Of a DNA stretch of 55,907 nucleotides, positions 216-42,347 are shown in pieces. Position numbers and translations under genes: made by a program. Under the pieces are notes generated by a model, which was not told the origin of the DNA, did no database searches, and worked only from the letters and a program-made list of their open reading frames with translations. Location of the stretch: IMG/VR virus record IMGVR_UViG_3300027976_000049, positions 1 to 55,907 of that record, one strand, 5' to 3'. How positions within the stretch are numbered: position 1 is the first letter of the stretch; each line of letters opens with the position of its first letter. The stretch is from a virus.

Positions 216-279
216 CATTTTTATCTCTAATCTCGAAAGGAAATTCTTTTACATTTAATTGTTGTGCTATTGTTTTCAT
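1..279 (-). CDS. Tandem-repeat (Y-E-N-x-x-G-x-W-x-K type) phage protein, partial and frameshifted
   Basis: The start codon is at 277-279 and the gene runs off the left edge. After an N-terminus reading MKTIAQQLNVKEFPFEIRDK the protein is made of ~22-residue repeats with the pattern NEIYxExxDGxWxKxEFDxNN, each encoded by ~66 bp of near-identical DNA. Similar 'YENSNGYW.K.EYDSNGNE' repeat proteins are common in Bacteroidota phages, and their function is unknown. The second repeat lacks one T around 149-151 compared with the third, so the frame shifts inside the array; the shifted frame stays open to the window edge. The shift could be a real slippage mutation between repeats or a sequencing error. 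The start overlaps the stop of the upstream gene (ATGA), so the two are probably translated together. Confidence 0.6.
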   Translation of the reverse strand, partial: MKTIAQQLNVKEFPFEIRDKNGNEMYFENANGFWYKREFDENNMKSIMKIQMVLGIKVNLMKIIMKSILKIRMVIGIKVNLIKTIMKSILKIR

Positions 280-842
280 AATGTTACTTTTATATTGTTT
301 GAATCTTTTGATGTAAAGTGGATGGATGAATCAACTGTTATACTACTTCGTTTTTCATCATCTTTCCAAAATTCATGTCTAATTACTTGTATTAAATCAA
401 ATGCTTCTCTACAACTTTCATCTACTTTTGGATTATGAATACCCCAATTACCATTTCTCCCTGTTGAATAATCTTGTATTAATATGTTTCTTACTTCTGT
501 TAATCTGTTATCAACTTCATCTCGGATTGAATGGAATCTTGAATAATCAGTAGATAACTTAACATCTTTTAATTTTTTCCACGCAGTTTCCTTATCCCAC
601 ATACCATTCTTTATACTACCATTAATTAATGCTTTACCATTCTTAATTTCAAGTATTTCTCCTTGTGAGGTTCTATCACCAACCTCGATATCTTTAACAG
701 GAATACATTCATTACATAAATGCCTTTCAAATGTTGGGTGATCTTTTATTACACCGAATTGACCAGCACCAACTCTTGAGTATAAATCTAATGCTCTTTG
801 GATTAATCTAAGTTGTTTGTTATTTACTTCTAGTGTTGCCAT
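276..842 (-). CDS. Uncharacterised phage protein with segment shared with the 9.9-kb gene
   Basis: 188 aa. The N-terminus (residues 8-35) reads RLIQRALDLYSRVGAGQFGV and the C-terminus ends in a stretch like VDSSIHFTSKD. From memory this resembles an uncharacterised family common in Bacteroidota phages; no function is known. Residues ~62-85 (GEILEIKNGKALINGSIKNG) are nearly identical to the C-terminal part of the truncated metallophosphoesterase at 9852-10178, and the DNA of that segment is ~84% identical, although the rest of the two proteins is unrelated. The stop codon overlaps the next gene's start (ATGA). The upstream gene ends 1 nt before, so this is one operon. Confidence 0.75.
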   Translation of the reverse strand: MATLEVNNKQLRLIQRALDLYSRVGAGQFGVIKDHPTFERHLCNECIPVKDIEVGDRTSQGEILEIKNGKALINGSIKNGMWDKETAWKKLKDVKLSTDYSRFHSIRDEVDNRLTEVRNILIQDYSTGRNGNWGIHNPKVDESCREAFDLIQVIRHEFWKDDEKRSSITVDSSIHFTSKDSNNIKVTL

Positions 843-2897: not shown

Positions 2898-3896
2898 TCA
2901 TATATATTTGTTTAAGTTGTTATTTTTAATGTATATAAAACTGCCTGCTCCTGACTTTGCAGAATTTATATTATCTCGACTTTTTAAATAGTCTTTTGAT
3001 AGTACCCCATTATATGAATTTAAAGTTTGACTATATGACTTTAAGTCTAAGTCATAAAACATCACGTATTCAAGTCTATATTTATTAATGTAGTTTTCTA
3101 ATTCAGTTTTTAATTGATTAGCAGTTCCATAAATATAAGTTAAGTGTTTATTGTTTGGTGTAGATATTAGAATTTTCCCTCCACTAAATCTACCTAATTC
3201 GTCTCCGTTTCCTGAGCTTCCCATACCTATAGGATATGAATGTTCAGTCTTGTCTAAATTAATTAGTTTAATCGCAATCTCTCTTCCAGTTACACCTGAC
3301 CAACCTAATACTGAATTTGTGCCATCTATATTAATGCCAGTGATTTTTTTAGGATTCCATAGTTGACTAACTTTATAATTAGTATTTATAAATTCTTTTA
3401 ATCTACCTACTTTAACATTTCCGTTATCGTTTATAGCTAACATATAACTGTCTAGGGTAGGCATTGGTAGTTTACCACATCTTTTAATTTTACTTAATAC
3501 TGGCTCTCCAAATGGAGAAAATGATGATATTATAGCGGAGCCGTAAATATCATCATTGTCATATCTATTTCGATGTCCTAGATTATTATACTTATCTAAT
3601 TCTATTAACATTGGTAAATAATACATAGTAGAATTTTCAGGATTCTTAATAGTATCAGATAGAATAGTTATATTACTATAAGTTATTGGGTATTTACTAT
3701 TTACTATAATACTAGTTTCCCTAATTAAACCAACTCTATTTTTTACAAAATTAATTAGCTGAATAAAAAAATTAATAGTACCTTCTTTTTTAATAGTTTC
3801 TAATCCTTCTTCTATTAAAGTTATTTCTTTATGTTCGATACAAGAATTAAGTATGCATGGATTTAATAAAATTAGTAATAATACTATAGTTTTCAT
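2898..3896 (-). CDS. Putative secreted lipoprotein of the lysis cassette
   Basis: 332 aa. The N-terminus MKTIVLLLILLNPCILNSC is a hydrophobic signal with Cys19 in a lipobox-like context (ILNSC), so it is likely exported and lipidated. The rest is soluble with Gly-rich stretches (GMGSSGNGDELGRFSGGK) and ends AKSGAGSFIYIKNN; no catalytic motif is recognised. It overlaps the GH19 endolysin upstream by 4 bp (ATGA) and is the last gene of an operon starting at 5132. A periplasmic or outer-membrane lipoprotein placed right after an endolysin could act in outer-membrane disruption (spanin-like role), but at 332 aa it is much larger than known o-spanins, so the role is inference. Confidence 0.65.
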   Translation of the reverse strand: MKTIVLLLILLNPCILNSCIEHKEITLIEEGLETIKKEGTINFFIQLINFVKNRVGLIRETSIIVNSKYPITYSNITILSDTIKNPENSTMYYLPMLIELDKYNNLGHRNRYDNDDIYGSAIISSFSPFGEPVLSKIKRCGKLPMPTLDSYMLAINDNGNVKVGRLKEFINTNYKVSQLWNPKKITGINIDGTNSVLGWSGVTGREIAIKLINLDKTEHSYPIGMGSSGNGDELGRFSGGKILISTPNNKHLTYIYGTANQLKTELENYINKYRLEYVMFYDLDLKSYSQTLNSYNGVLSKDYLKSRDNINSAKSGAGSFIYIKNNNLNKYI

Positions 3897-4714
3897 TTAA
3901 GTAAGTTATAAAATTTATTGAAATGTTTAATACGATCATCAAGACCATTGGTTCCACCATTAACTCTTTTAGTTACTGCGGTTATTGTTGCAACATCGGA
4001 TCCTTTATCACAAATGGACCAAAGTGAGTTGCGATTAAAAAAGAAGGCCGCTGATGATAAAGGGTATTTGGTTGATACTAAATCAGGATTAGACATAATA
4101 TCATCGTTTACTGTTTTATTAAATTCTGCATAATTATCTTTTCCAGTTAATTGAATATACCCTCTACCTCTATGCTTCCACCCATCACCGCTATCTTCGT
4201 TACCGTTACCCATTCTTGATGAATATACTAGATTAGCTATTTTTTCAGGGTTACGCTCATATAACAAAGCCTTTGCATTAGTAGGAAAATATTTTTTAAA
4301 TATTGAACTCAACCCAGAAGCCCCATAATTCAAATTCTCAGTAACAGCCTTGAAATTACCCGATTCATGTCCACATTGAGATAAGAAATGAGCTAATCTT
4401 AATACTGTAGTGATATTATATGTTGTGGCTGTTTCAGGGATTTGCGATATTACAGAATAAGGAATATATCCTTTTAAATTTTCCAATTTAAAATTTGATT
4501 TAGGCATGTTTACTAATGGTAGTATTGTTGTAGATAACACCATTTTAGACCATGTAGAATCACCCACAATACCATCGGCAATAAGACTATTATTTGATTG
4601 CCATGCTTTAACTGCTGCTTCTGTTCCTTTACCAAAGCTGCCATCTGCACTCACACCCAAGAACTCTTGTAATTGTTTAACTTCCTTACCCTTTGAATTA
4701 ATTTTCAAAATCAT
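3893..4714 (-). CDS. Endolysin: peptidoglycan-binding domain plus GH19 chitinase-like lysozyme
   Basis: 273 aa. Residues 1-58 are a PG_binding_1 domain (GKEVKQLQEFLGVSADGSFG ... ADGIVGDSTW). Residues ~85-273 are a glycoside hydrolase family 19 domain, with HESGNF (Glu117) and TENLNYGASGL (Glu126) as the usual catalytic glutamates, then a GRGYIQLTGKDNY signature near 182-195. GH19 phage enzymes cut the glycan strand of peptidoglycan and act as endolysins. No signal peptide is present, so it would need a holin. Overlaps of 4 bp on both sides (4711-4714, 3893-3896) tie it to the adjacent membrane protein and lipoprotein. The binding domain is a close paralogue of that in the amidase at 23314-24243. 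Confidence 0.9.
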   Translation of the reverse strand: MILKINSKGKEVKQLQEFLGVSADGSFGKGTEAAVKAWQSNNSLIADGIVGDSTWSKMVLSTTILPLVNMPKSNFKLENLKGYIPYSVISQIPETATTYNITTVLRLAHFLSQCGHESGNFKAVTENLNYGASGLSSIFKKYFPTNAKALLYERNPEKIANLVYSSRMGNGNEDSGDGWKHRGRGYIQLTGKDNYAEFNKTVNDDIMSNPDLVSTKYPLSSAAFFFNRNSLWSICDKGSDVATITAVTKRVNGGTNGLDDRIKHFNKFYNLLK

Positions 4715-4926
4715 AATGCACTATTTATTTTTATATCTGTGATCACTTCGGAATTAATTTGATTAATTAATTCTTTAAAAAATAATATTTCTTCTCTACT
4801 AAAAGCCATACCTATAGAAAAATAAGGTCTATTACGTTTCCATATAATAAACATACTTGATGTTTTATACATTAACTTTTTTATTATTAATATTACTAAT
4901 AGTGTTATCATGAGTATTAATATCAT
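4711..4926 (-). CDS. Small single-TM protein of the lysis cassette (holin/spanin candidate)
   Basis: 71 aa. Residues 1-17 (MILILMITLLVILIIKK) form one strongly hydrophobic segment followed by a basic, soluble tail with a helix near the C-terminus. It overlaps the endolysin start by 4 bp and the upstream gene's stop by 1 bp (TAATG), so translation is coupled. A one-TM protein directly before an endolysin fits a holin, pinholin or spanin component; the sequence alone does not decide which. Confidence 0.6.
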   Translation of the reverse strand: MILILMITLLVILIIKKLMYKTSSMFIIWKRNRPYFSIGMAFSREEILFFKELINQINSEVITDIKINSAL

Positions 4927-8948: not shown

Positions 8949-9137
8949 TTTTGGTAAATTTTGAAAAAATAAATTAGGGAATTCTCCTAAACTAATTCTC
9001 CTAGCTTCCATAACTTTAGCTAAATGAGAATAATGAATTCTAGGTCTAGAAATATAATCACCTGGATTTAATTCTTCCATATTGACTAATTCTTTTTTAA
9101 CTTCGTTTTTTGCTATTTTGAGCATAAATTCAATCAT
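8937..9137 (-). CDS. Small phage protein with DYIS-PRI-Y core
   Basis: Open frame up to 9176; Met at 9137 (MIEFMLKIAKNEVKKELVNM) is the better start because it overlaps the stop of the upstream truncated gene (ATGATTGA). The core GDYISRPRIHYSHLAKVMEA is shared with the 58-aa protein at 6385-6561, so the two are paralogues of an uncharacterised small phage family. The protein ends PKDGM, encoded within the 23-bp repeat. Confidence 0.55.
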   Translation of the reverse strand: MIEFMLKIAKNEVKKELVNMEELNPGDYISRPRIHYSHLAKVMEARRISLGEFPNLFFQNLPKDGM

Positions 9138-9285
9138 ATTTCTTATTTTTAGAACTATATGTAGTTTCGACATCATATCCTATTTCTGTTAATATCGTAT
9201 TAGTACTATCGTATCTAGTTACGGTAATCTGACTCATACATAATGTTGATATTAGGAGCATCACTGCTATATACAATAGTTTCAT
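9130..9285 (-). pseudogene. Truncated duplicate of the exported protein at 9306-9683
   Basis: 51 codons from ATG 9283-9285 to TGA 9130-9132. The N-terminus LISTLCMSQITVTRYDSTN is nearly the same as LILSTLCMSQITMTTYDSNN of the adjacent upstream gene, including the signal peptide ending MSQ. It stops after TYSSKNKKYD, whereas the full copy continues for 75 more residues. This is a tandem duplication with loss of the 3' part. It may still yield a short exported peptide. Confidence 0.6.
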
Positions 9286-9305
9286 TGTTTTTATTTATGC
9301 TTTGA

Positions 9306-9683
9306 TTAATATAGTAAACCTGCTCCGTCCAATACTGAGTAATTACCATTTTGATATTGTATTGTTACTATATTTTCACCATTATAGAAGAATGTATAAT
9401 CGATGTTGTGTCCGTTAGTATCTACACATTTATAATTAATCCACGTCATATTAAGAGCATCGATACCCACTTCAAGTATTTTATAATGTAGCGTGGTAGT
9501 TGTATCATTATGTGATGATATTACGGTTAATATAGACTCATCGTCGTTGGAAATATACGATGTCTCCATATTTTTTCGAGTCTCGTTTAAATACTCGTTG
9601 TTACTATCATATGTAGTCATGGTGATTTGACTCATACATAATGTAGATAATATTAGCATTAATGCTGTGCACAATCCTTTCAT
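9306..9683 (-). CDS. Small exported protein
   Basis: 125 aa. The N-terminus MKGLCTALMLILSTLCMSQ is a signal peptide with the flavobacterial ...SQ end. The mature part is Thr/Asn/Tyr-rich and beta-like (YTFFYNGENIVTIQYQNGNY). No family recognised. A truncated copy follows immediately. It is one of a group of phage-encoded exported proteins (also 5205, 15632 and 17468) that may act in the host envelope, for example in exclusion of other phages; that role is inference. Confidence 0.65.
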   Translation of the reverse strand: MKGLCTALMLILSTLCMSQITMTTYDSNNEYLNETRKNMETSYISNDDESILTVISSHNDTTTTLHYKILEVGIDALNMTWINYKCVDTNGHNIDYTFFYNGENIVTIQYQNGNYSVLDGAGLLY

Positions 9684-9694
9684 AATGTTTAATT

Positions 9695-9851: not shown

Positions 9852-10178
9852 TTATATAAATTCTACTTCTTTTCCGCTATATATTAATCCTTTATTCCAC
9901 ATACCATTCTTTATACTCCCATCAATTAATGCTTTACCATCTTTAACTTCAAGTACTCTACCTTGTGGTGTTGAATCTAAGAAACTGTCACGGTTACCTG
10001 GAACATAAACTTTATATTCAGCTGGATAATCTAGCCACCAATCACAGAAGTAACGCCTTTCATTTGAATACTCTTCTCTATAATTAGTAGCATCTCCACA
10101 GTGAATTAATAAGTCTACTTTAGTTTGCAGTTCATCCAAATGGAATTGGTGAGTGTCACTTAGTATTTTTAGTTTCAT
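9852..10178 (-). CDS. Truncated metallophosphoesterase with foreign C-terminal segment
   Basis: 108 aa. Residues 1-65 carry the first three calcineurin-like metallophosphoesterase motifs: D-x-H in SDTHQFH, GD in HCGDATN, and GN-x-D in VPGNRDS. The rest of the usual domain (the GHxH end, another ~100 residues) is missing. After FLDSTPQ the sequence becomes GRVLEVKDGKALIDGSIKNG, a segment nearly identical to part of the unrelated protein at 276-842. The DNA match spans 9891-9972 against 591-672. The gene is therefore probably a recombination product and is unlikely to be a full enzyme. Confidence 0.7.
   Translation of the reverse strand: MKLKILSDTHQFHLDELQTKVDLLIHCGDATNYREEYSNERRYFCDWWLDYPAEYKVYVPGNRDSFLDSTPQGRVLEVKDGKALIDGSIKNGMWNKGLIYSGKEVEFI
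9891..9972 (-). repeat. ~82-bp block shared with 591-672
   Basis: About 84% identical by hand alignment (13 mismatches in 80 positions, no gaps) to 591-672, in the same reading frame and strand, while the flanks are unrelated. It includes 19 or more identical consecutive bases at the start of the block (ccacataccattctttatac). Confidence 0.75.
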
Positions 10179-23313: not shown

Positions 23314-24243
23314 TTATAACGATATTAGCATATCCATTAATTCTTGCTGAGGAAACATATCAGATTTATCTTTCCTTATATTAGAATGTGTTAGTAGACC
23401 TTTAGCTTTGCCATAATATGCATCTTTATTCCATTCGAATGCATCTGCACCTTTTGCTTTAATCCATGTTGGTAATCCTGCTATAATGTCAATATTATCT
23501 CTATCACCAATAAATAATATTAAATTTTTCAATGATTCAATTTGCATATCAGAATATTTGTGCCATGTTGAGTGACCTCTAAATGGCTTATCTAATATAA
23601 CTATTTGTGAATCATCTGCTAATACTCCAGAATATGTATAATATGAATTTGGGTTTTTAGTTATCCAAATACCGTTTTTAGTATATCCACCCTTTGTTAA
23701 ATATGCAAAGTTATTTACTTCAATACCTACTGAGTTTTTATGCATACTCTGAGAACCATTCTTTCCTAAGTGCCATCCATAATTTCCAGCAGGAAATGAT
23801 TGTACAACATCACCGTCATAACTATCATCGTCACCCTTAACACTTGGTCCGCCAATTATGAATTCAGTTGAAACTGCTCCTCTAGAATCTCTACCCCAAT
23901 GATCGATTGTTTTATATGGATTTTGCCAGCCGGCAGTATGGTGCAAAAACATATATTCTGGATTAATTGGACCTTGTTTGTATTCAGATATTGGTAAAAA
24001 ATGTTTGTTTATAATTAATCCATTTTCTGTAGAATAGTACGTCTCCGAAAGGTCAGTAGTAGCCAAACCCATACAATTCCAAGTGGCAGGGCCCACAATG
24101 CCATCAGCAACAAGACCATTATCGGCTTGCCATTCTTTAACAGATCTTTCTGTTCCTTTACCAAAGATGCCATCTATTGTAATATCCAAGAATTCCTGAA
24201 GTTCATTAACATAATTTCCGATGGTTCCAATTTTTAAAATCAT
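23314..24243 (-). CDS. N-acetylmuramoyl-L-alanine amidase with peptidoglycan-binding domain
   Basis: 309 aa. Residues 1-58 are a PG_binding_1 domain very similar to that of the GH19 endolysin (FGKGTERSVKEWQADNGLVA then DGIVGPATW). Residues ~95-300 form an Amidase_2/PGRP domain: MFLHHTAGW with the first zinc His near 101-102, STEFIIGG, YGWHLGKNG, NSVGIEVNN, and a C-terminal LLTHSNIRKDKSDMFP with His and Asp. It cleaves the sugar-peptide amide bond of peptidoglycan. It lies downstream of the acidic core-like gene and may share its late promoter (24680). No virion tag. Confidence 0.88.
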   Translation of the reverse strand: MILKIGTIGNYVNELQEFLDITIDGIFGKGTERSVKEWQADNGLVADGIVGPATWNCMGLATTDLSETYYSTENGLIINKHFLPISEYKQGPINPEYMFLHHTAGWQNPYKTIDHWGRDSRGAVSTEFIIGGPSVKGDDDSYDGDVVQSFPAGNYGWHLGKNGSQSMHKNSVGIEVNNFAYLTKGGYTKNGIWITKNPNSYYTYSGVLADDSQIVILDKPFRGHSTWHKYSDMQIESLKNLILFIGDRDNIDIIAGLPTWIKAKGADAFEWNKDAYYGKAKGLLTHSNIRKDKSDMFPQQELMDMLISL

Positions 24244-24325
24244 AATTAATTTTTAATGAGCACTAGAATATGGAGCGTCGTATATGAAGTTCCCTATTCT
24301 AGCGTTTGAGATATTGATGAATATA

Positions 24326-30872: not shown

Positions 30873-30875
30873 ATT

Positions 30876-30911
30876 AAAAAGCCGATCATTATTAATAATG
30901 ATCGGCTTTTT
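30876..30911. terminator. Bidirectional terminator between convergent genes
   Basis: A perfect 36-nt inverted repeat: AAAAAGCCGATCATTATT and its complement, with T-runs on both strands. It serves 29229-30872 (plus) and 30932-32797 (minus). Confidence 0.9.
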
Positions 30912-30931
30912 AATGTTTTAATAATAGTGGT

Positions 30932-32822: not shown

Positions 32823-32831
32823 CATATATTT

Positions 32832-32871
32832 AAACAAAAAATGACCACATCGATGTGGTCATTTTTTGTTT
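32832..32871 (-). terminator. Terminator after 32887-33261
   Basis: Perfect 40-nt inverted repeat (stem ending ATGACCACAT/ATGTGGTCAT with A- and T-runs), directly downstream of the glucosyltransferase operon. Confidence 0.9.
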
Positions 32872-32886
32872 AAATATTATATGTTA

Positions 32887-35347: not shown

Positions 35348-35392
35348 ACACATAAAAAAAGCGAACAATGAATGTTCGCTTTTTTTATGTGT
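35348..35392 (-). terminator. Terminator after 35408-37462
   Basis: Perfect 20-bp stem (ends ACACAT/ATGTGT, core GCGAACA/TGTTCGC) with a 4-nt loop and long A/T runs. Works in both directions. Confidence 0.9.
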
Positions 35393-40360: not shown

Positions 40361-40596
40361 GTGTTTATAAGTTTAGTTAGATTTTCCTGGTTTAATATTA
40401 AACCTGTTTCCTCTTCTATTTTATTTATCAACATAATTTCTGACTCTCTTAAGTTAGTAAGTTCATTACTTATTATGTTCTTATTATCAATAATAGACAA
40501 CATCGCTTTCTCTAAATTAGATATTTCAATATGAATATCTGCATATCTATTTACGATTGACTTAAGTTCTTGTATATCCGTCTCTTTAATATTCAT
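40357..40596 (-). CDS. Small coiled-coil protein, 79 aa
   Basis: Begins MNIKETDIQELKSIVNRYAD. Nearly all helical with heptad-like leucines and isoleucines (IEISNLEKAMLSIIDNKNII). No family recognised; resembles small coiled-coil chaperones or adaptor proteins in tail operons. It overlaps its downstream neighbour by 4 bp and its upstream neighbour by 1 bp. Confidence 0.55.
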   Translation of the reverse strand: MNIKETDIQELKSIVNRYADIHIEISNLEKAMLSIIDNKNIISNELTNLRESEIMLINKIEEETGLILNQENLTKLINT

Positions 40597-42347
40597 TATT
40601 CTATAATTTTAACATCTAACGTACCGGATAATAGATTCTCTATTTTTCTAAGTCGTGATTCTACAGCTGACATATCAGTAGGAGATGACATTGATTGATT
40701 TGACGAACTTGATTGAGTTGATGAAGTATCTGAGCTAGTCGAGTTATCAATAGTACTTGCAGTAGAGGGCGGTTCTGAATTAGTTTTTACTACTTCCGTC
40801 ATAGATACACCACTATCTGTTGGAGCAATATCAGGTTTATCAATAACGGGAGGAGTATTAATAGGAGCAACTCCTCTGTCCAACCCAATTTTTGATTTAG
40901 TAACATCAGTTGTATTAGATATATTATCAGTTACTGAATCTTTAATGTTTTTAATTTTAGATTCTGATGTATTAACTGTGTTAGATATATTAGTCTCATT
41001 TAATATATCATCTGTGTTAACAGAGTCGTCAGTCTCATTTAATATATCATCTGTGTTAACAGAGTCGTCCTCCATTCCAAAACGTTCCTTAACTGCTTCA
41101 ATATCAGCAAGTGTAATTGTTTCATCTTCATCTTCTGTATCTTTAGGGTTCACAGATGTGATGTCTGAATTTATAGCAGTGTTAGTCGTGTTAATACTAG
41201 TATCTCCGATACTTTCAGTATTTGAATCTTCTATGGATGTATCGTTTATCACAGACGATACACTTGATACATTTACTATATCATCTGTGTTAACAGAGTC
41301 GTCAGTTTCATTTAATATATCATCAGTGTTAATAGAGTCGTCCGTACTAACAGAGTCGTCCTCCATTCCAAAACGTTCCTTAACTGCTTCAATATCAGCA
41401 AGTGTAATTGTATCATCTTCATCTTCATCTTCTGTATCTTTAGTTATAGAAGAAGAATTGTTATTAATAACACTTTTAGATATATTATTAGTAATACTTT
41501 CATCAACATCGTTTATAACAGATGATGAAACATTATCAGATACATCAGACTTAACTACTTGTTTATCTTCTAATTCTAAAATTGGAGTTACATTGGATTC
41601 AACAACAGGGGCAATTGATTCAACAGAGTTGCTAGATTCAGTTTCAACATCATCTTCCTCTATTTCGTCTATTACTTCTTCTGGGTTTATAGAATCAGCT
41701 TCGTTGTAATCGGTATCATCTTTTGAATCTATATCATCAGATTCATTAATTGTGTTACTTTTAGTGTTATTTAATAGTGGATACCCATCCTCTCGTAAAG
41801 CCGCGATTAACTCAGGACTAGATAATAATCCACTAGGACCATCTAACTCAGGTTCAAATTGATGTGCGATGCTTTCAATATCTTCGCCCCCCATGATTTT
41901 ATCCCACATGTCCTCGGGTTTTGGTACCTTAAGGATAACACTAGATATTGCCTGCTTTACTTTAAGAAAATATGCATCAGGACCGTCCGCTTTATACTTG
42001 GTTACCTGTTCTAAATATTTCTTAGCTTTTTCTAGTCTACGGTTAGAATCAGATATCTTGTAAAGCTCCTTTACCATTGATTTAAATGGATCACCGTATT
42101 CTAAAAGGTTAATATAATTAATACTTAACCCTGAAGATGGATCGCCTCCATTAAATCCACCTTTTTCTGGGAAAATATTAGCAAATATCTCTCCTGCACC
42201 GAGATTAGCTGCTTCCAACGTCGCCTCTGGATGTAGTTCATTGAACCTGGCCACTAGAGTTTCATACTTCGCGACATTACTATTAACTTTTGCTATTTGT
42301 AAATCCGCCTTATTGAAAAATATACTATTGAATGCGTCTAATGACAT
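40596..42347 (-). CDS. Structural protein with long acidic disordered region and internal repeats
   Basis: 583 aa. Residues 1-190 are folded and helical (LEAANLGAGEIFANIFPEKG, KISDSNRRLEKAKKYLEQVT). Residues ~195-560 are a Ser/Thr/Asn/Asp/Glu-rich disordered stretch. This contains two nearly identical copies of an amphipathic motif (TITLADIEAVKERFGMEDDS) and several 'NTDDILNETDDSV' units, encoded by exact DNA repeats. The last ~25 residues form a coiled-coil-like helix (AVESRLRKIENLLSGTLDVK). Late motif upstream. Likely a tail or baseplate component with binding motifs for a repeated partner. Confidence 0.65.
   Translation of the reverse strand: MSLDAFNSIFFNKADLQIAKVNSNVAKYETLVARFNELHPEATLEAANLGAGEIFANIFPEKGGFNGGDPSSGLSINYINLLEYGDPFKSMVKELYKISDSNRRLEKAKKYLEQVTKYKADGPDAYFLKVKQAISSVILKVPKPEDMWDKIMGGEDIESIAHQFEPELDGPSGLLSSPELIAALREDGYPLLNNTKSNTINESDDIDSKDDTDYNEADSINPEEVIDEIEEDDVETESSNSVESIAPVVESNVTPILELEDKQVVKSDVSDNVSSSVINDVDESITNNISKSVINNNSSSITKDTEDEDEDDTITLADIEAVKERFGMEDDSVSTDDSINTDDILNETDDSVNTDDIVNVSSVSSVINDTSIEDSNTESIGDTSINTTNTAINSDITSVNPKDTEDEDETITLADIEAVKERFGMEDDSVNTDDILNETDDSVNTDDILNETNISNTVNTSESKIKNIKDSVTDNISNTTDVTKSKIGLDRGVAPINTPPVIDKPDIAPTDSGVSMTEVVKTNSEPPSTASTIDNSTSSDTSSTQSSSSNQSMSSPTDMSAVESRLRKIENLLSGTLDVKIIE
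41057..41120 (-). repeat. 64-bp exact direct repeat (copy 1; copy 2 at 41348-41411)
   Basis: Identical over 64 bp by reading, encoding the LADIEAVKERFGMEDDS segment. A shorter ~33-bp unit (encoding NTDDILNETDD) is repeated beside both. Recent internal duplication; in-frame copy-number change is likely. Confidence 0.85.
41348..41411 (-). repeat. 64-bp exact direct repeat (copy 2)
   Basis: Second copy of the 41057-41120 repeat within the same gene, 291 bp away. Confidence 0.85.

Follow-up and report, generated by a model that had tools for sequence, protein, structure and literature searches.

The block at 591-672 raises the question of how a short piece of coding DNA can come to stand, in the same frame, in two otherwise unrelated genes of one phage. 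The window, by which we mean the whole stretch of DNA that was analyzed, is an IMG/VR virus contig of 55,907 bases that encodes a T4-type terminase, a DNA ligase and endolysins. The initial annotation of this DNA had reported an in-frame match of ~84% between 591-672 and 9891-9972 with flanks that do not match, and both parts of that description hold. The two stretches agree at 69 of 82 bases (84%) in the same register and frame, blastn gives an E of 2.6e-19, and the full shared stretch extends to 29 codons or 87 nt (591-677 and 9891-9977, 72/87 identical), outside of which a codon-by-codon comparison shows identity falling to background at once on both the left and the right. Chance is excluded for the 82-base match, since the second-best ungapped site for the same 82 bases within the window reaches only 42/82 on the plus strand, and the best ungapped site on the reverse complement of the window is also 42/82. 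The 55,907-base window contains no third copy of the block. The two genes that host it, hereafter referred to as gene A and gene B, both lie on the minus strand, a detail absent from the initial annotation, and their parts are collected in Table 1.

Table 1. Features of the two genes that carry the shared block (window coordinates).
Feature	Position	Strand	Description
Gene A	276..842	-	188 aa; unnamed phage family; predicted helical core with optional beta cassette
Cassette of gene A	546..707	-	About residues 46-99; missing in 10/38 distinct homologues; edges approximate
Shared block, copy A	591..677	-	Residues 56-84 of gene A; native; in 12/12 type-1 homologues
Gene B	9852..10178	-	108-aa chimera: truncated metallophosphoesterase and cassette fragment
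Phosphoesterase part of gene B	9978..10178	-	Residues 1-67; DxH and GD kept, GNHD changed to GNRD, rest missing
Shared block, copy B	9891..9977	-	Residues 68-96 of gene B; foreign; found in 0/80 phosphoesterase relatives
Tail of gene B	9855..9890	-	12 residues, GLIYSGKEVEFI; stop codon next at 9852-9854

Other repeats are also present in the window. Two distinct endolysin-like genes on the minus strand (3893-4714 and 23314-24243) have an N-terminal block in common that, at ~200 nt, is longer than the 29-codon one (4527-4728 and 24056-24257, 71% identical). The adjacent small minus-strand ORFs 9130-9285 and 9306-9683 have a stretch of 93 nt in common (9204-9296 and 9602-9694, 77% identical), which suggests a local duplication close to gene B. 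Three tandem copies of a ~63-nt coding repeat with units like FENSDGYWHKSEFDENNNEIY (minus strand) lie at the contig edge (1-225), and the large minus-strand ORF 40596-42347 contains arrays of a 39-nt repeat nested in larger repeats (89 nt, 94% identical) at 40945-41443. Self-complementary stretches between large genes, two of them perfect (32826-32877, 52 nt, and 30873-30914, 42 nt) and a third of 45 nt at 35348-35392, are probably terminator hairpins.

Gene A belongs to a phage family without a name. In IMG/VR, 62 homologous loci came up when gene A and the relatives found first were used as queries, while no Pfam, PHROGs or NCBIfam family matched above chance, and the family is absent from the annotated phage records and from the bacterial and archaeal genomes searched. 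The conserved core reads LTEEQLRLIQQALDFYSRIGIGQF..IKDHPTF ... STDY..YH..RD ... NGSWGI.NP.VDESCREAFDIIQVIRHEFWK in the alignment, and between its two halves sits a cassette of ~50 residues. This cassette comes in two related types, with the consensus VGDRTPQGEILEIKdGKALInGSV...W for type 1, to which the block belongs, and VGDrTeRGEvVEI..IKTKGSWGNGEEI..W for type 2. The block makes up most, not all, of the cassette, since it covers residues 56-84.

The AlphaFold2 model of gene A, built from 38 sequences in place of an earlier 9-sequence model with a pLDDT of 65, reached a pLDDT of 88.4 and a pTM of 0.75. It has helices at residues 8-25, 29-34 and 36-45, strands at 62-67, 70-78 and 81-90, and then helices again at 100-122 and 142-161, so that the cassette is predicted to form a small insert, resembling a beta barrel, within a protein that is otherwise helical. 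Its three long strands and short helix, as predicted, recall the small beta barrels of SH3-like or KOW type. A Foldseek comparison of the gene A cassette to the PDB gave weak matches (best E 0.098), and among the best of these a single chain of eukaryotic large ribosomal subunits recurs and predominates. We take this chain to be eL21, with its SH3-like barrel. Pfam SH3_2 matched 1 of 11 cassettes (E 0.0047). Membership in the SH3-like barrels is not claimed here because the matches are weak. By sequence, the cassette returned nothing significant from Pfam, PHROGs or NCBIfam, and neither it nor family A has a significant match among the PDB sequences, i.e., no solved relative.

The distribution of the cassette within family A bears directly on how such a segment can move. 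Among 38 distinct homologues, 12 carry type 1, 16 carry type 2 and 10 have none. When these three states are placed on a maximum likelihood tree of the core, from which the cassette columns were taken out, 10 changes are required against a minimum of 2, and supported clades contain mixed states. Trees that force each state into one clade are rejected, with p-AU values of 8.6e-5 for type 1, 7.1e-5 for type 2 and 0.0011 for "none", the groups in these tests being defined by cassette and not by tree. The number of state changes and the rejection of one origin mean that the cassette has been exchanged between phages. Type 1 is found both in the window's own clade and in a distant core clade, and between these two clades the cassette is 67% identical vs. 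56% for the core; between type-1 members and their near-core type-2 neighbors the relation is reversed, with cassettes at 29-42% and cores at 68-69%. Repeated swapping, loss and gain among homologues is thus what the sequences indicate for the cassette, whose position is constant throughout the family. Homologous recombination through the conserved core that flanks the cassette would suffice for this pattern and is the most likely route. Repeated exchange of this kind in a small beta domain is a pattern often tied to contact with a varying partner, and we regard the unnamed family with its swapped cassette as the most interesting by-product of the analysis. Of the two parts of the proposal that the block is a "selectively exchanged beta-hairpin," these results support one, the exchange, in that the block lies in a small beta domain that is swapped, lost and gained among gene A homologues.

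The frequent state changes inside family A, together with the presence of two unrelated host genes in one genome, could also be expected of a mobile coding micro-element that enters unrelated genes in frame by its own action; such an element was among the possibilities listed in the initial annotation. The search for further copies speaks strongly against this. The pattern E-[IV]-K-x-G-K-A-L-I-x-G occurs at 10 places in IMG/VR, all 10 in known family A records, and a profile of both cassette types finds 36 loci, again all in family A, in scans that rely on short conserved stretches, that may not cover the very nearest relatives of the window and from which distant copies may escape. A profile scan of 84,980 bacterial and archaeal species genomes gave no confirmed relative of the cassette. 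At the block we saw neither terminal repeats nor a target duplication nor the signature of a recombinase, and the fixed position of the cassette within family A is not what a self-inserting element would produce. We consider such an element highly improbable.

Gene B presents a different picture. Its N-terminal ~68 residues match calcineurin-like phosphoesterases (PF12850, E 1.3e-4; PF00149, E 2.5e-4), a group also represented in Flavobacterium phages of Elemovirus, and alignments to the phosphoesterases of related phages stop at residue 68, which is where the block starts, just as had been noted when the likeness to metallophosphoesterases was said to end exactly there. Within this part the metal motifs DxH and GD are present (D8, H10, G28 and D29). 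Gene B differs from the calcineurin-like enzymes in that the histidine of GNHD, kept in nearly all of 80 relatives, is replaced by arginine (H63 to R, giving GNRD), and in that the C-terminal metal ligands of HG(P/A)P (e.g., HGPP) and GHxH are missing, with a foreign block in their place. By a simple motif scan, 75 of the 80 IMG/VR relatives have both C-terminal motifs. A search of the window revealed no remains of a phosphoesterase C-terminal half. Gene B is also the most divergent member of the phosphoesterase set, with a best identity of 48% vs. a median of 90% for the others, and deviates at 6 of 24 strongly conserved positions. Members of the superfamily without these metal ligands should be inactive, and on sequence grounds the product of gene B is probably an inactive remnant. 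One point against a remnant is that the 108-codon frame is intact and runs in frame across both joins, since a dead gene is under no need to stay open.

Neither the block nor the cassette occurs in any of the 80 IMG/VR phosphoesterase relatives (0/80); weak matches to the cassette profile in 2 of them lie at the C-terminal end and are chance-like. The comparison of homologues that had been called for thus gives an unequal answer, in that family A has the block as a normal, if optional, component while to the phosphoesterases it is foreign, and the expectation that would have made it unremarkable, an ordinary conserved place in both families, is borne out for family A only. For gene B the suggestion of a recombination scar is well supported: the block it carries is a real in-frame scar, with foreign sequence set into a truncated phosphoesterase. 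Searching with a pattern of gene B's left junction gave 0 matches, and neither an intermediate nor a second chimera was found.

As for the donor, the block of gene B is identical at 76/87 nt to the A gene of phage contig IMGVR_UViG_3300027976_002493 (L014 = L054), compared with 72/87 for the window's own gene A, and in a DNA tree it groups with L014/L054 with a support of 98/94. It also shares derived codons with them, namely TCA for AGA, ACA for ACC, GGT for GGA and GTA for ATA (relative to L052). These codons and the grouping argue against a copy from the window's own gene A by intragenomic duplication or gene conversion, which would agree with the location of both genes in one record and on one strand and with their close identity; the topology test stops short of formally rejecting a grouping of gene B's block and gene A of this contig (p-AU 0.10). 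We consider an intragenomic copy unlikely. Since the block is closer to L014/L054 than to its own A, the A gene of another phage, or a lost paralogue, appears more likely as the source than gene A at 276-842.

The gene neighborhood may have contributed. In 9 distinct related loci a full-length phosphoesterase gene lies less than ~1 kb from gene A, with a position that varies between upstream, downstream and both sides (L052). Since the donor and recipient families often adjoin, an illegitimate event at close range is plausible, as is a crossover between two phages that are out of register by one gene. Some of these neighborhoods have features of their own. At L052 (2244-4606) the A gene, which is among those closest to gene A, is flanked by two full-length phosphoesterase genes of one family. 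At L067 (3964-5453) an intact phosphoesterase lies downstream of gene A, and beyond it only residues 165-225 of a second one are matched, perhaps a further sign of decay in the A/phosphoesterase gene pair. At L049 (7848-7890) a stop codon right after SDT interrupts the DTH motif of the phosphoesterase next to gene A (tcggatacgtaac); the start of this gene may be broken, since the frame opens again further on. A resemblance between the start of the cassette (VGDRTPQGEILEI) and the C-terminal end of the phosphoesterase (KFGRLSSNGNILEI) was considered as a guide for recombination and rejected (profile comparison E 0.057, probability 0.9%).

The open frame of gene B leads to a more generous reading, in which the gene encodes a functional new protein. 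The phosphoesterase half would then serve as a scaffold or as a regulatory decoy, and the binding part, acquired from family A, would be the cassette fragment with the tail as its last strand. The differences between its block and that of L054, 7 synonymous and 4 nonsynonymous (dN/dS about 0.11), seem at first to agree with such a protein. However, with the window's A to polarize the sites, most of the synonymous changes are placed on the side of L054, and the own branch of gene B, with ~2 synonymous and ~2 nonsynonymous changes, is uninformative. The tail can indeed be placed on the last cassette strand (GKEVEFI on LKDVKLS), but 379 of 3000 shuffles fit as well, which is no better than chance, and profile matches stop at residue 96-97. 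Taking the tail as a resumed phosphoesterase strand was likewise no better than chance, with 514 of 3000 shuffles as good. Together with the unusual divergence of the phosphoesterase part and the loss of one catalytic residue, this makes a functional gene B quite improbable in our judgment.

It is also important to consider whether gene B could be an artefact of assembly, given that the IMG/VR sequence was assembled from a metagenome and that gene B has no close relative among the sequences searched. A metagenomic misjoin would take two independent in-frame misjoins 87 bases apart, and a collapsed repeat bridging the copies is not at issue since 15 of the 87 sites differ, so we give this explanation almost no weight. 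What we consider probable is that the block is part of an optional, exchangeable cassette of family A and that illegitimate recombination produced the truncated phosphoesterase chimera, gene B. We infer that an illegitimate event, either non-homologous or guided by very short homology, joined 29 cassette codons in frame to phosphoesterase codon 67. The donor would have been an A gene close to that of IMGVR_UViG_3300027976_002493, and the recipient would have lost its catalytic C-terminal half in the process.

The significance of the case lies in its size, as it documents the passage of a very short piece, in frame, from one phage gene to an unrelated one, together with the two edges and a likely donor lineage. 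A survey of domain mosaicism in phage proteins counted only fragments of at least 50 aa (Smug et al. 2023, PMC10684548, doi 10.1038/s41467-023-43236-9), a minimum that is a cut-off of the survey method and not a biological definition (PMC10684548), and the 29 codons transferred here fall below what that survey counts. Should the 29-codon sub-domain fragment pass between unrelated phage genes as a working binding module, with gene B a live new protein, phage proteins would be shuffled below the fragment size that current surveys examine, a prospect to which we assign only a slim chance. The case differs from those of the survey in that the shared fragment, at 29 aa, is shorter than its minimum, the donor family is uncharacterized and the recipient is truncated (PMC10684548). 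The two are alike in that a homologous fragment is common to two otherwise unrelated phage proteins and that domain swapping among homologues is ongoing (PMC10684548), and the pair of gene A and gene B is a short, clear example of the domain shuffling and protein mosaicism already known in phages.
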